DNA from: Thermoplasmatota archaeon
GTDB lineage: Bacteria > Pseudomonadota > Gammaproteobacteria > Burkholderiales > Thiobacillaceae
Length of the DNA: 8,760 nucleotides
Direction: 5' to 3'
Assembly (NCBI GenBank): GCA_023475455.1
Contig: JAMCVR010000152.1
Span: 1 to 8,760 of the forward strand
A program made the translations under genes and the position numbers. Shown here one piece after another: positions 2,805 to 8,760 of the stretch (within the stretch, counting starts at the first letter, position 1; the number at the start of each line of letters is the position of its first letter). The notes under the pieces were generated by a model. That model ran no database searches and had not been told where the DNA came from. It worked only from the letters and a program-made list of their open reading frames with translations.

Positions 2805-5006
2805 TTGAACAACAATCCAGCGATTCAGGACGCTTCGGACGTCATCACGCCTGCCGGGAACCCCCGTGATGACGCTTCCTTGTCTGCCGCGGTGACTGAC
2901 TCCCTGCTCGAATGCCTGCTCGTGGTGGTGCATGCGCACGGCGGCACGCTGAGCCGTCAGGCCGCCATCGACGGCCTGCCGCTGGTCGACAACCGCCTCA
3001 CCCCTTCCCTGTTTCGCCGCGCCGCCAAGCGCGCCGGCTTCACCAGCAATGTGGTGAAGAAACCGCTCGAAGGGCTCAACCCCGCCCTGTTTCCCGCGGT
3101 GCTGCTGCTCGACGGCGAGGAAGCCTGCGTGCTGCTGGGCTGGCAGGACGACGGCCGGACCGCCCGGCTGATCTTCCCCGAACTGGGCAAGGCCGAGGCC
3201 TTGCTGCCCCGCGACGAACTGGCGGCACGCTATTCCGGCCACGCGATCCTGGCACGCCCCGAATTCCGCTTCGACGCCCGCACCCCCGAAGTGGGCCGGG
3301 TCAAGCAGCGCCACTGGTTCTGGGGCACCCTGGCCGACAACGCGCCGCTGTACCGCGACGTGCTGCTGGCGGCGTTCATGATCAACCTGTTCGCCATCGC
3401 CCTGCCGCTGTTCACCATGAACGTGTACGACCGCGTGGTGCCCAACCGCGCGATCGAAACCCTGTGGATGCTGGCGATCGGCCTGGTGATCGTGCTGGTG
3501 GCGGACCTGGTGCTGCGCACGATGCGCGGCTATTTCCTCGATCTGGCCAGCAGCCGGGTGGATGTGCGGCTTTCCGCCTACATCATGGAGCGCGTGCTGG
3601 GTCTGCGCCTGGAAAACCGGCCGCTGTCCGCGGGCTCGTTCGCCGCCAATCTGCGCTCCTTCGAGACGATCCGCGACTTCATCACCTCGGCCACGGTGAC
3701 CGCCTTCATCGACCTGCCGTTTGCGCTGATCTTTCTGGTCGTGATCGGCTGGATTGCATGGCCGCTGATCCTGCCCATCCTGTTCGGCATCCTGCTGGTG
3801 GTGGCCTATGCACTGACCGTTCACAGCAAGATGCACGAACTGTCGGAAACGACTTACCGTGCCGGCGCGATGCGCAACGCGACGCTCGTCGAATCGCTGG
3901 TCGGACTGGAAGCGATCAAGGCGCTGGGCGCCGAGAGCGTGATGCAGCGCAAATGGGAATCGAGCGCGGCCTTCCTGTCGCGCGTGGGGGCCCAGCTGCG
4001 GCTGCTGTCGTCGTCGACCATCAACGGCGCGATGTGGGCCCAGCAGCTGGTGAACGTGATGGTCGTGGTGGTCGGCGTATACCTGATTTCAGACGGCCTT
4101 CTGACGCTCGGCGGACTGATTGCCAGCACCATGCTGGCGTCGCGGGCGATGGCGCCGATCGGCCAGATTGCCGGCCTGCTCACCCAGTACCACAACGCGG
4201 CGACCGCGCTGAAGTCGCTCGACGACATCCTGCAGCAGCCGGTCGAACGGCCGGCGGACTCGAATTTCGTGACCCGCCGGCATTTCACCGGCGACATCGA
4301 GTTCAAGGACGTCGACTTCAATTACCCCGGCCAGGACCATGCCACGCTGCGCAATGTCTCGCTGAAGATCCGCGCCGGCGAGCACGTGGCGATCCTCGGC
4401 CGCGTCGGCTCCGGCAAGACCACGCTGGAAAAGCTCATCCTCGGCCTGTACCAGCCGACATCGGGCGCGGTGCTGGTGGATGGCGCCGACCTGCGCCAGC
4501 TCGACCCGGCCGAGCTTCGCCGCAACATCGGTTATGTGCCGCAGGATGTGATGCTGTTCTACGGCAGCCTGCGCGACAACCTGACCATCTCCGCGCCGAC
4601 CGCCGACGATGCCGTCGTGCTGCGCGCCGCGCAGGTGGGCGGCCTGCTCGAATTCGTCAACAGCCACCCCAGGGGCTTCGACATGACCGTGGGCGAACGC
4701 GGCGAATCGCTTTCGGGCGGCCAGCGGCAGGCGGTCGCCATCGCGCGCGCCACCATCAACGACCCGCCGATCCTGCTGATGGACGAGCCGACCGGCTCGA
4801 TGGACCATTCCAGCGAAGAGGAAATCAAACAGCGGCTGCGCGCGTTTGCCGCCGGCAAGACCCTGCTGGTGGTCACGCACCGCACCTCGCTGCTGGATCT
4901 GGTCGATCGCATCATCGTGATCGATGCCGGCAAGGTCGTGGCGGACGGTCCCAAGGCCCAGGTGGTCGAGGCCCTGCGCCAGGGCCGCATCGGGAAGGCC
5001 GCATGA
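2805..5006 (+). CDS. lapB: Type I secretion ABC transporter with C39-like domain (LapB type)
   Basis: This 733-residue inner-membrane ATPase would energise export of the adhesin encoded downstream, working with the membrane fusion protein and a TolC/LapE-type pore. The order is normal for the family: an N-terminal C39 peptidase-like domain (about 27-150); a transmembrane domain (about 185-440) beginning with the conserved LPLFTMNVYDRVVPNRA; and the nucleotide-binding domain (about 490-725). In the latter, Walker A is GRVGSGKT (532-539), the signature LSGGQRQ (636-642), Walker B ILLMDEP (656-662), and the H-loop His is at 692. In the C39-like domain the DCG catalytic triplet appears as D32-S33-L34, so the protease Cys is absent and the domain should only bind substrate, as in LapB/HlyB types. 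The start is TTG 2805 with a weak AGAG upstream; GTG 2892 is an alternative. Its stop overlaps the next ATG (ATGA). Length and motifs are intact. Confidence 0.93.
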   Translation: MNNNPAIQDASDVITPAGNPRDDASLSAAVTDSLLECLLVVVHAHGGTLSRQAAIDGLPLVDNRLTPSLFRRAAKRAGFTSNVVKKPLEGLNPALFPAVLLLDGEEACVLLGWQDDGRTARLIFPELGKAEALLPRDELAARYSGHAILARPEFRFDARTPEVGRVKQRHWFWGTLADNAPLYRDVLLAAFMINLFAIALPLFTMNVYDRVVPNRAIETLWMLAIGLVIVLVADLVLRTMRGYFLDLASSRVDVRLSAYIMERVLGLRLENRPLSAGSFAANLRSFETIRDFITSATVTAFIDLPFALIFLVVIGWIAWPLILPILFGILLVVAYALTVHSKMHELSETTYRAGAMRNATLVESLVGLEAIKALGAESVMQRKWESSAAFLSRVGAQLRLLSSSTINGAMWAQQLVNVMVVVVGVYLISDGLLTLGGLIASTMLASRAMAPIGQIAGLLTQYHNAATALKSLDDILQQPVERPADSNFVTRRHFTGDIEFKDVDFNYPGQDHATLRNVSLKIRAGEHVAILGRVGSGKTTLEKLILGLYQPTSGAVLVDGADLRQLDPAELRRNIGYVPQDVMLFYGSLRDNLTISAPTADDAVVLRAAQVGGLLEFVNSHPRGFDMTVGERGESLSGGQRQAVAIARATINDPPILLMDEPTGSMDHSSEEEIKQRLRAFAAGKTLLVVTHRTSLLDLVDRIIVIDAGKVVADGPKAQVVEALRQGRIGKAA

Positions 5007-6280
5007 AAGCCGGCCTGTTCGCCTCCATCGCCCGTTTCGCCGACAGTTCATCGGCCTGGTCTCGACATGCGCGGCCGCTGCTGGACCGCCTGTTCGCCCG
5101 GTGGATTCCGCCGCGTCCGGACGAGTCGCTGGGCTGGGCGGCGGATGCCGACTGGGCACGGCTGGACCAGGAGCCCCTGCGCGCGCGCTACCTGCTGCGC
5201 CTGATCGGCGTGATTCTGCTGGTGCTTGTGCTGTGGGCGGCGTTCGCCACGGTGGACGAAGTCACGCGCGGAACCGGCAAGGTGATCCCCTCGCGCCAGG
5301 TGCAGGTGGTGCAGGCGGTCGACGGCGGCGTGATCGCGGAAATCCTGGTGCGCGAAGGCCAGGCGGTCGAGGCGGGGCAGTTGCTGTTTCGCATCGACAA
5401 GACGCGCTTCGTTTCCTCGCTGCGCGAAAACCGCGTGCAGTATCTGGCGCTGCTGGCCAAGGCGGCGCGCCTGCGCGCACTCGCCGAAAACATGCCGTTC
5501 CGGCTGCCGGCCGAGGTGGTGCAGGAAGACCCCCGGCTGGTCGAGGAAGAGCGTAGCATGTACGACGCCCGACGCCGGGAACTGGAAACCCAGATCGGCA
5601 TCGCGCGCCAGCAACTGGCCCAGCGCCAGCAGGAACTGGTCGAAGTGCGCTCGCGCCGCGAACAGGCCGCGCAGGCCTACGACCTCACCACCCGTGAACT
5701 GACGATGACCCGGCCGCTCGCGGCCTCCGGCGCGGTCTCGGACGTCGAACTGCTGCGCCTTGAACGCGATGTGAGCCGCTATCGCGGCGAACGCGATCAG
5801 GCGTCCGCCCAGATCATGCGCCTGCAGTCCGCCATCGCCGAAGCGTCGCGCAAGGTGCAGGAACAGGAAATCAGCTTCCGCAACGAAATGCGCAACGAAC
5901 TGGCGGAGACCATGGCCAAGCTCAACAGCCTCTCCGAAGGCAGCACGGCGCTGTCCGACCGCGTCGAGCAGGCCAGCGTCAAGTCGCCGGTGAAGGGCAC
6001 CGTCAAGCGCCTGCTGGTCACGACCGTGGGGGGCGTGCTGCAGCCGGGCAAGGAAATCGTGGAGATCGTTCCGACCGACGATGCCCTCCTGCTGGAGACG
6101 CGGATTTCGCCCAAGGACATCGCTTTCCTGTGGCCGGGACAAAAGACGACGGTGCGTTTCACCGCCTACGACTTCACTGGCCAAGGCGGCGCGCCTGCGC
6201 GCACTCGCCGAAAACATGCCGTTCCGGCTGCCGGCCGAGGTGGTGCAGGAAGACCCCCGGCTGGTCGAGGAAGAGCGTAG
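5003..6280 (+). pseudogene. lapC: HlyD-family membrane fusion protein (LapC type), 5' part, truncated by a tandem duplication
   Basis: LapC-type proteins link the ABC transporter to the outer-membrane pore. ATG 5003 overlaps the transporter stop by 4 nt. The protein has a cytoplasmic N-terminus, one membrane helix (about 66-82, IGVILLVLVLW), then VDEVTRGTGKVIPSRQVQ and a lipoyl half (GGVIAEILVREGQAVEAGQ). A long coiled-coil hairpin follows (about 150-320), then the second lipoyl half SPVKGTVKRLLV and the start of the beta-barrel up to F391. There, at 6176, one extra A and a second copy of the preceding 723 bp push the ribosome out of frame. Thirty-four unrelated residues follow to TGA 6278-6280. 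The normal C-terminus of the barrel is missing, so the 425-residue product is probably non-functional. Removing one 724-bp unit would give an intact 471-residue protein of normal length. Whether the duplication is natural or an assembly error is unknown. Confidence 0.88.
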
Positions 6281-6899
6281 CATGTACGACGCCCGACGCC
6301 GGGAACTGGAAACCCAGATCGGCATCGCGCGCCAGCAACTGGCCCAGCGCCAGCAGGAACTGGTCGAAGTGCGCTCGCGCCGCGAACAGGCCGCGCAGGC
6401 CTACGACCTCACCACCCGTGAACTGACGATGACCCGGCCGCTCGCGGCCTCCGGCGCGGTCTCGGACGTCGAACTGCTGCGCCTTGAACGCGATGTGAGC
6501 CGCTATCGCGGCGAACGCGATCAGGCGTCCGCCCAGATCATGCGCCTGCAGTCCGCCATCGCCGAAGCGTCGCGCAAGGTGCAGGAACAGGAAATCAGCT
6601 TCCGCAACGAAATGCGCAACGAACTGGCGGAGACCATGGCCAAGCTCAACAGCCTCTCCGAAGGCAGCACGGCGCTGTCCGACCGCGTCGAGCAGGCCAG
6701 CGTCAAGTCGCCGGTGAAGGGCACCGTCAAGCGCCTGCTGGTCACGACCGTGGGGGGCGTGCTGCAGCCGGGCAAGGAAATCGTGGAGATCGTTCCGACC
6801 GACGATGCCCTCCTGCTGGAGACGCGGATTTCGCCCAAGGACATCGCTTTCCTGTGGCCGGGACAAAAGGCGACGGTGCGTTTCACCGCCTACGACTTC
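5453..6899 (+). repeat. 723-bp direct tandem duplication within lapC
   Basis: Bases 5453-6175 reappear at 6177-6899 at a constant offset of 724. By eye the copies differ only at 6146 (A) versus 6870 (G). Base 6176 (A) sits between them and matches neither the base before copy 1 (G 5452) nor the base after copy 2 (G 6900). The unit length (723 = 241 codons) would keep the frame; the extra A destroys it. Near-identity means the event is recent or maintained by recombination, or is an assembly fault. No insertion sequence or longer repeat flanks the unit. Confidence 0.95.
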
Positions 6900-7142
6900 G
6901 CGATCTACGGCGGCCTGGAAGCCGTGATCGACCAGATTGCAGCGGATACCGTCACCGACGAGGACGGCAATGCCTTCTACCTGGTGCGCGTCCGCACCCT
7001 GAAATCGTCGCTGGGGAAAGACATGCCGATCCTCCCCGGGATGGTCGCGGAAGTGGACATCATGACCGGCCGCAAGAGCGTCCTGGCCTATCTGCTCAAG
7101 CCGGTGATCCGCGCCAAAACCCACGCCTTCACGGAGCACTAG
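6177..7142 (+). pseudogene. lapC: Second copy and genuine C-terminus of the membrane fusion protein
   Basis: From CTG 6177 the frame reads a second time through residues 151-391 of the fusion protein (LAKAARLRAL to AYDF) and then continues past the duplication. It gives the true C-terminus: AIYGGLEAVIDQIAADTV, DEDGNAFYLVRVR, the conserved ILPGMVAEVDIMTGRKSVL and YLLKPV, ending at TAG 7140-7142. It lacks the membrane helix and first lipoyl half. An open frame extends back to ATG 6081, but that ATG lies out of frame inside copy 1 and has no biological sense. An internal ATG (in ENMPFRLP) has no clear ribosome site. It therefore has no credible independent start and is the detached 3' part of the gene beginning at 5003. 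At 6870 copy 2 has G (Ala codon) where copy 1 has A at 6146 (Thr). Confidence 0.85.
7133..7136 (+). promoter_or_regulatory. Ribosome binding site for the LuxR-type regulator
   Basis: GGAG ends nine bases before ATG 7146 and lies inside the last codons of the membrane fusion protein frame. It supports ATG 7146 as the start and shows translation tied to the upstream gene in the same transcript. Confidence 0.6.
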
Positions 7143-7145
7143 CCG

Positions 7146-7796
7146 ATGACGCGCCACGTATTCGTGACCGCACGGCCGCAGCCGATCCCCCGCTGGCTGG
7201 AGGCGTTTCCCGACGCCCCGCTGGTGCGCGACCAAGGCCCGGACGAGACTGACTTTACCCAACTGGCGGGGGCATCCGTGATATGGCTGCACGTTACGGG
7301 AGACGCCCCCGCGGTATCGGCCTGGGTGGGCACGGTGCGCGCTGCCGCACCGCATGTGCCGATCGTGGTGCTGTCGAACGTGCCGGAAGACGATCAGGGC
7401 ATGGCGGCGCTGGCGGCCGGAGCCTCCGGCTATTGCAGCGCGCTCACCTTGCCGGCGGTCCTGCGCCAGGTTGCCGGCGTCGTCGAGCACGGCGGCCTGT
7501 GGGTGGGTCCGCAACTCATGCGCCGGCTGATGCGGGGCCTGGCGGCACGCAACAGCGAGCCCCCGGAGCCGGCTCTCGACAGGCTGAGCCAGCGTGAACG
7601 CCAGGTTGCCGTGGCGGTTGCGCGCGGCGCGACCAACAAGGAAATCGCGCGCGTCCTGGGCATCACCGAGCGCACGGTGAAAGCGCATCTGGCGGCCGCT
7701 TTCGAGAAACTCGGCGTGCGCGACCGCATGCAGCTCTCGCTTGTCGTCAACGGTGTCGAGGACTCGACACCCCGCTCCCAGAAAATCCCTGCCTGA
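7146..7796 (+). CDS. LuxR/NarL-type transcription regulator with degenerate receiver domain
   Basis: The 216-residue protein begins 3 bases after the membrane fusion protein stop. Residues about 1-125 have the length and alternating pattern of a response-regulator receiver. The phospho-acceptor position, normally Asp in a hydrophobic strand, reads VIWLHVTG with H49, and the usual conserved Lys near GYL-LK is lost (GYCSAL). It is therefore unlikely to be switched by phosphorylation in the usual way. Residues about 146-203 are a complete LuxR-type helix-turn-helix: LSQRERQV, then ARGATNKEIARVLGITERTV and KAHLAAAFEKLGV. Its place between secretion genes and the adhesin suggests it controls this locus, possibly the adhesin promoter in the 100-base gap that follows; this is inference. 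The DNA-binding domain is sure, the target is not. Confidence 0.88.
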   Translation: MTRHVFVTARPQPIPRWLEAFPDAPLVRDQGPDETDFTQLAGASVIWLHVTGDAPAVSAWVGTVRAAAPHVPIVVLSNVPEDDQGMAALAAGASGYCSALTLPAVLRQVAGVVEHGGLWVGPQLMRRLMRGLAARNSEPPEPALDRLSQRERQVAVAVARGATNKEIARVLGITERTVKAHLAAAFEKLGVRDRMQLSLVVNGVEDSTPRSQKIPA

Positions 7797-7896: not shown

Positions 7897-8760
7897 ATGG
7901 ACGCGAGCGTATCCACCCCCCAGGCAGTCGCCACAGTCATCGCGGTAGAAGGCCAGGCCTTTGCCCGCGACCCGGCCGGCCAGATGCGGCCGCTGAAGCC
8001 CGGCGACGTCCTGCTGGAAGGCGACACCATCGTGACCCTGCCCGGCGGACAGGTCCAGCTGGCCTTCCTCGATGGGCAGATGCTGACCCTGCTGCCCAAC
8101 GAAAGCTTCCGGTTCACGGCCGAGACCTCGCCGACCTCGCGTCCCGAAGTCGCCGAGGCCGCCCTGCCGGCGGGCGAAGCCGAGCGCATCATCCAGGCAC
8201 TGGAGCGTGGCGAGGACATCGACGATCTGCTCGACCCCACGGCTGCCGGCCTTGATGGCGGCGGTGGCGGCGCCGGCAATGGCTTCGTACGCCTGCTGCG
8301 GATTGTCGAGGGTACGGGTGACGCGGCCCCGCTCGAATTCGGATTCACCGAACCCGCAGCCAAGGGGCCTTTCGATGAAAAGGAAGACCTGGCGGCAGGC
8401 ACTGCCAACCTGACCCCGCCTGCAGGCGGCGCGGCCAACACGGCGCCGGCCGCGAACCCGGACACGGTCACGGTCAACGAAGATTCCCCGGTGACGATCG
8501 ATGTACTGGCAAACGACACCGATGCAGACGGCGATGTCCTGGCCGTGGACTCCGCATCGGCATTCAACGGCACAGTCGTGGTGAATCCCGACGGGACGAT
8601 CACCTACACGCCGAATCTGGACTTCAGCGGCTCGGACAGCATCGCCTATACGGTAAGCGACGGCCGTGGTGGCGCCACCACGGCCACGGTGGACGTCACC
8701 GTCACCCCCGTGAACGATCCGGCCATCATCGCCGGCCAGACCACGGGAGCCGCGAACCCG
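7897..8760 (+). CDS. lapA: Giant surface adhesin, N-terminal part with LapA-type retention module (3' end outside window)
   Basis: The frame runs from ATG 7897 to the window edge (288 codons) without a stop. Residues about 1-110 form the retention module of LapA-like RTX adhesins (VIAVEGQAFARD, GDVLLEGDTIVTLPGGQVQLAF), which folds in the periplasm and holds the adhesin in the outer-membrane pore. A helix (EAERIIQALERGEDIDDLLD) leads to P-T-A-A-G at 114-118, the LapG protease site, followed by a Gly-rich linker and FVRLLRIVEG, conserved in the family. From about residue 179 an extracellular Ig/cadherin-like repeat of the tandem-95 type begins (NPDTVTVNEDSPVTIDVLAND, with the acidic DTDADGD, then DGTITYTPNLDFSGSDS). 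A new domain opens at VNDPAI. The C-terminal RTX and secretion signal must lie outside. The protein should promote biofilm attachment and be released when LapG is active. The lapA symbol denotes family, not proven orthology. Confidence 0.9.
   Translation, partial: MDASVSTPQAVATVIAVEGQAFARDPAGQMRPLKPGDVLLEGDTIVTLPGGQVQLAFLDGQMLTLLPNESFRFTAETSPTSRPEVAEAALPAGEAERIIQALERGEDIDDLLDPTAAGLDGGGGGAGNGFVRLLRIVEGTGDAAPLEFGFTEPAAKGPFDEKEDLAAGTANLTPPAGGAANTAPAANPDTVTVNEDSPVTIDVLANDTDADGDVLAVDSASAFNGTVVVNPDGTITYTPNLDFSGSDSIAYTVSDGRGGATTATVDVTVTPVNDPAIIAGQTTGAANP
8239..8250 (+). other. Predicted LapG cleavage site (TAAG) in the adhesin
   Basis: Codons ACG GCT GCC GGC encode T115-A116-A117-G118, the di-alanine motif cut by LapG proteases between the two Ala. 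Its place directly after the retention module and a charged helix, and before a Gly-rich linker, is as in Pseudomonas LapA, where cleavage is near residue 108. In that system c-di-GMP-bound LapD sequesters LapG; no such genes are in this window. Confidence 0.8.

Follow-up and report, generated by a model that had tools for sequence, protein, structure and literature searches.

An adhesin exporter operon with a duplicated segment

The window considered here is a Thiobacillus-like contig of 8,760 bp, apparently taken at its full length, whose right-hand part carries genes for the export of a large adhesin. Within the gene for the membrane fusion protein (MFP), the stretch 5453-6175 is repeated directly at 6177-6899, with a start-to-start distance of 724 bp. 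The features of this region are as follows.

2805-5006, + strand: type I secretion ATPase/permease of the LssB/LapB type, an open frame of 733 aa (TIGR03375, 996.7 bits against a cutoff of 693.1)
5003-6280, + strand: truncated MFP gene of the LapC/HlyD type, 425 aa, made of 391 native and 34 out-of-frame residues (TIGR01843, 306.6 bits, model positions 4-344 of 422)
5453-6175, + strand: copy 1 of the tandem duplication, MFP residues 151-391 (repeat search, alignment)
6146, + strand: sole position at which the two copies differ over 723 bp, with A here and G at 6870 in copy 2
6176, + strand: the joint base, an A, where both native flanks (5452 and 6900) have G (alignment)
6177-6899, + strand: copy 2 of the tandem duplication, identical to copy 1 at 722 of 723 bases (repeat search, alignment)
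6177-7142, + strand: detached 3' portion of the MFP gene, encoding residues 151-471 and the stop, in another frame than 5003-6280 (frame 6081-7139: TIGR01843, 297 bits, model positions 94-421)
7146-7796, + strand: LuxR/NarL-type response regulator, 216 aa (domain/profile search)
7897-8760, + strand: beginning of a large adhesin of the LapA-like kind, with a retention module and a tandem-95 repeat, that runs off the contig end (NF033682, 111.5 bits against a cutoff of 50)

The first-pass annotation had described two direct copies with an offset of 724 and one mismatch in 723 bp, and both the repeat search and the alignment agree with this description. The pair is the sole family of direct repeats of at least 30 bp reported in the window, and a near-identical repeat of this length cannot have arisen by chance. 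The event can also be written as the duplication of a 724-bp unit, in which case the joint base counts as another G-to-A difference. In either notation, the native flanks are joined to both copies without loss, and the two G-to-A differences (6146 and 6176) both fall within the last 31 bases before copy 2. By simple arithmetic, a mismatch lying as near to the joint as that at 6146, which is 30 bp away, is expected in about 8% of cases (60 of 723 positions), provided that mutations are evenly distributed. The joint sequence at 6164-6177 also resembles positions 6399-6412 of the same gene (13 of 14 bases), and thus the A at the joint could have been templated there.

The assignment of the interrupted gene to an adhesin exporter, likewise made in the first-pass annotation, is borne out by profile matches, given that the LapC-like gene adjoins a LapB-type ATPase gene and a LapA-like adhesin gene. 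The locus resembles LapB/LapC-type exporters in that its ATPase and both pieces of its MFP score above the respective TIGR03375 and TIGR01843 cutoffs (208.65 for the latter) and in its LapA-type retention module. It differs from them in that the MFP is split by the duplication and in that no LapE-, LapD- or LapG-like genes were found among the frames of the window.

Because the offset is 724, the reading frame is broken, and translation ends 34 residues past copy 1, as had been predicted. An in-frame product with a longer coiled coil is ruled out, since 724 is not divisible by three. The truncated product lacks the last 80 residues of the MFP (392-471). These follow the second lipoyl half, which is matched by HlyD_3 at residues 326-388, and solved relatives align over the corresponding part (5nen up to residue 466, 8dck up to residue 468). 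The truncated MFP is presumably inactive. An internal reading of 308 aa (P0002) was also considered as a working MFP and rejected, in that it starts at residue 164 and so misses both the N-terminal membrane segment, as judged by reading the sequence, and the first lipoyl half.

The left part of the contig

The DNA upstream of the operon is unusual. Positions 1311-1355 comprise the 3' 45 bases of a tRNA-Arg(ACG) without its 5' half, and they are identical to the 3' end of a complete tRNA located upstream of the same operon in four related loci (L001, L002, L004 and L008). The spacing between tRNA and operon is approximately 0.1 kb in L002, L004 and L008, more than 6 kb in L001 and 1.4 kb in the window. 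The partial tRNA is probably an attachment-site remnant of an integrated element. Further to the left, a 328-residue open frame (164-1150) lies in DNA of lower GC content and gives a marginal PADLOC match (E = 0.011, 12.9 bits) and no Pfam match up to E = 1. An RxxxxH sequence in its C-terminal part resembles the motif of HEPN proteins.

Between the tRNA remnant and the operon, positions 1513-2530 hold a chain of pieces of glgX and of an opposite-strand gene that is presumably treS-like; in relatives, these pieces are colinear and share one orientation. Missing from this chain are approximately 0.97 kb (relative to genomes G005 and G010), 0.63 kb (G003, G009 and G010) and 11.8 kb (G009 and G010), and the glgX piece carries a 1-base insertion. 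A search of plasmid DNA with the left part returned only glgX homologues in other bacteria. The glgX-treS junction at 2381 recurs in protein P0127, which is encoded on a contig of 17,438 bp, with 117 of 118 residues identical and the same three residues after the junction; P0127 is the only one of the best 120 listed proteins to have these end residues. This junction is therefore probably inherited. A chimeric origin of the contig as a whole was considered on account of the large segments missing from glgX and treS, and is weakened by this recurrence, and by the colinear, same-orientation pieces found in relatives. The other two junctions of the left part, and the duplication, are without a second witness contig.

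Copy number and selection among relatives

Comparison with the orthologous gene in related genomes, which the first-pass annotation had proposed as a check, showed a single copy wherever the unit could be aligned. Scanning genome contigs gave 48 loci, with the top-ranking ones in Thiobacillus metagenome-assembled genomes. Of these loci, 43 can be aligned as DNA, and none of them has the unit more than once: 42 have one match of more than 450 bp, and one (L041) has two colinear, non-overlapping matches. The remaining five, which are distant loci (L044-L048), gave no DNA match to the unit. Within the family of genome G004, there are 35 matches to a one-copy MFP (P0001) in 34 of 117 genomes (E <= 1e-100), none with an internal stop. 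All but one of these matches extend to residue 470, the exception being the partial match in G082 (residues 1-213). The two surveys overlap, in that ten of the family genomes (G001-G010) are also behind some of the 48 loci. Both sample one genome per species, and therefore a switch that is mostly ON could be missed.

P0001 itself is a near-identical one-copy protein of 471 residues encoded on another contig (6,930 bp). The product of 5003-6175 differs from it by Thr for Ala at residue 382, and that of 6177-7139 by Pro for Gln at residue 434. A protein search returned 5,253 relatives, and 320 at E <= 1e-150; the best 120 of each set, with one per 90% cluster, amount to 126 different proteins, 119 of which have 471 residues. 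At residue 382, where copy 1 has Thr, 115 of these 119 listed relatives have Ala and the other four have Val. The residues formed at the joint are absent from all 126 listed proteins, although clustering at 90% could hide a duplicated form, and the window's own 425-aa protein is itself not among the relatives listed. An exact 13-mer of the joint is absent from 64 loci, which is a weak test in relatives that are approximately 10% diverged, and an exact 26-mer is absent from viral contigs.

Both copies retain a low dN/dS. Measured against L001-L004, dN/dS is 0.086-0.12 for the two copies, 0.065-0.109 for the first part of the MFP gene, 0.063-0.117 for the ATPase gene and 0.149-0.208 for the regulator gene. 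The low values of the copies, similar to those of the gene start and the ATPase gene, point to purifying selection on the MFP gene until recently, and thus the lesion is either recent or not real.

Origin and possible fates of the duplication

The endpoints offer little that could have guided the duplication. In register, they match over at most 2 bp (GC) at the joint, and this only if 6176 is a mutated G, with a shared GGCGGC located 9 bp further on. The GGCGGC match was obtained in one of the two registers tried, the other giving a run of 1, and 1.6% of random pairs do as well by having a run of at least 6 within 20 bp. Its position beside the joint is faintly suggestive of a microhomology-assisted duplication. 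When the surroundings of the endpoints were examined for repeats, nothing longer than the 6-bp match in register was found to link one endpoint to the other. The nearby sequence does contain direct repeats of 11-12 bp that are exact, as well as short palindromes that are imperfect, including one at 5467-5484 that lies 14 bp inside the left end, but none of these connects the endpoints. The loss of one unit thus poses no difficulty, whereas a frequent re-formation of the duplication is hard to account for in the absence of repeats that link the endpoints.

With these observations in mind, we consider it somewhat probable that the window records a real, recent and one-off tandem duplication of 724 bp that arose spontaneously within the MFP gene of an adhesin exporter of the LapB/LapC type. 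Under this explanation, the duplication would be present in the DNA of the cell, the truncated MFP would be inactive, and the adhesin would consequently not be exported by the LapB/LapC-type system. Loss of one unit through recombination or template switching would then bring back the one-copy gene. The allele is presumably revertible, as such tandem duplications generally are. Since no dedicated repeats were found for the forward event, the lesion has the character of a mutation and not of a programmed switch.

Two other accounts of the same sequence need to be weighed against a recent duplication. The repeat could be an artefact of library preparation or assembly, in which a chimeric molecule or a wrongly traversed loop doubled the stretch while in the cell the unit is present once and the gene is functional. 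We regard this as a serious possibility, albeit one that we lean against. Near-exact tandem repeats of 723 bp are hard for short-read assemblers to resolve. The duplication is found on a single contig, seemingly a whole record given that the window's own protein P0002 comes from a contig of 8,760 bp, and no second contig carries the joint, whereas the near-identical P0001 on another contig and all of the alignable relatives are single-copy. Moreover, the mismatch and the changed joint base are so close together that a chimeric read bearing errors would give the same result, and the Thr at residue 382 is unseen in the 119 listed full-length relatives. However, the copies meet their native flanks without loss, and the recurrence of the odd glgX-treS junction indicates that the record is not simply chimeric, even if P0127 may come from the same sample.

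Alternatively, the duplication could be real and fixed as a pseudogene in a decaying region, where the operon is disappearing together with the glgX and treS remnants. This account assumes the same event as a recent spontaneous duplication with a different fate for the allele, and therefore the probabilities that we attach to the various explanations do not sum to one. The shrunken chain at 1513-2530, with its three missing segments and its insertion in glgX, speaks for such decay. The operon itself speaks against it, because the frames of the ATPase, of the regulator and of the adhesin start are all open, and the dN/dS values of the ATPase and regulator genes are low. The near-identity of the two copies likewise gives no sign of long decay. 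We therefore judge fixation as a pseudogene to be unlikely.

The first-pass annotation had gone further, in proposing that recombination between the copies would restore a 471-residue protein and that this could serve as a reversible switch. The former part is reasonable: established genetics of tandem repeats predicts the loss of one unit, and one-copy alleles of 471 residues exist, including the near-identical P0001. The latter part is unsupported. It would require a contingency switch in which adhesin export is OFF in two-copy and ON in one-copy cells, kept by selection for both attachment and dispersal. An adhesin exporter gene is a plausible target for such selection, and a survey of one genome per species is compatible with a switch that is mostly ON. 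Yet no repeat that would often regenerate the duplication was found at the endpoints, which have no more than 2 bp in common at the joint and 6 bp close to it, and the duplicated form is absent from the 43 alignable loci and from the 35 matches in 34 of 117 genomes (again one genome per species). We therefore consider a selected switch very unlikely, and slightly less credible still is the specific claim that the MFP gene is a contingency locus where the 724-bp duplication arises and is lost so frequently that a mixture of attached and dispersing cells is maintained.

Nor is the general principle new, although such switching of a Lap secretion gene had been put forward as not being a standard described mechanism. 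We know of no such duplication switch in an adhesin exporter. Reversible duplications inside pneumococcal capsule genes (the type 3 capsule locus, cap8E and tts) were reportedly described by Waite et al. in 2001 and 2003. Passages in PMC4243769, citing both reports, refer to spontaneous and reversible sequence duplication in these genes, which provides the precedent in favour of a switch. Both are also cited in PMC4022640, and the later one in PMC13410964. PMC4022640 describes serotype 8 strains that are acapsular and have wchA interrupted by a tandem duplication, as well as acapsular variants with a tandem duplication that appeared during continuous culture on sorbarods. A review (PMC4235727) counts the homologous recombination of tandem duplications as one mechanism of localised hypermutation. 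For capsule genes of pneumococcus, phase variation through duplications within a gene has thus been described before. The pneumococcal cases resemble the present one in that an intragenic duplication inactivates a surface-related gene and is described as reversible. They differ in that loss and reversibility were reported there from cultured cells, whereas here there is one contig, a different gene and a different phylum.

Two other systems bear on particular steps. In a tetA gene with 101-bp tandem repeats, as recounted in PMC8378479, one unit is deleted without RecA, which is explained there by template switching; these constructs share with the MFP gene an internal tandem duplication, but are plasmid-built and involve 101 bp in place of 724 bp. 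In Burkholderia thailandensis, PMC11661271 describes a 208.6-kb duplication that favours biofilm growth and forms in a RecA-dependent manner between two insertion sequences. There too, attachment within a population changes with the number of copies of a duplicated stretch, but whole genes are carried and the gain of a copy favours the biofilm, whereas in the window the gene is broken and no such flanking repeats were found. Among titles and the beginnings of abstracts in the open-licence literature, no Lap-type or adhesin example of a switch by intragenic duplication was recognised.

As a mutation, the event would be an ordinary one, given that tandem duplications within genes appear spontaneously and may later be lost. 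Before a switch is proposed, a conspicuous tandem repeat on a single metagenome contig should have the support of reads. If both forms were present in sizeable proportions within one population, then export of the large adhesin would be a trait that is heritable and yet revertible.
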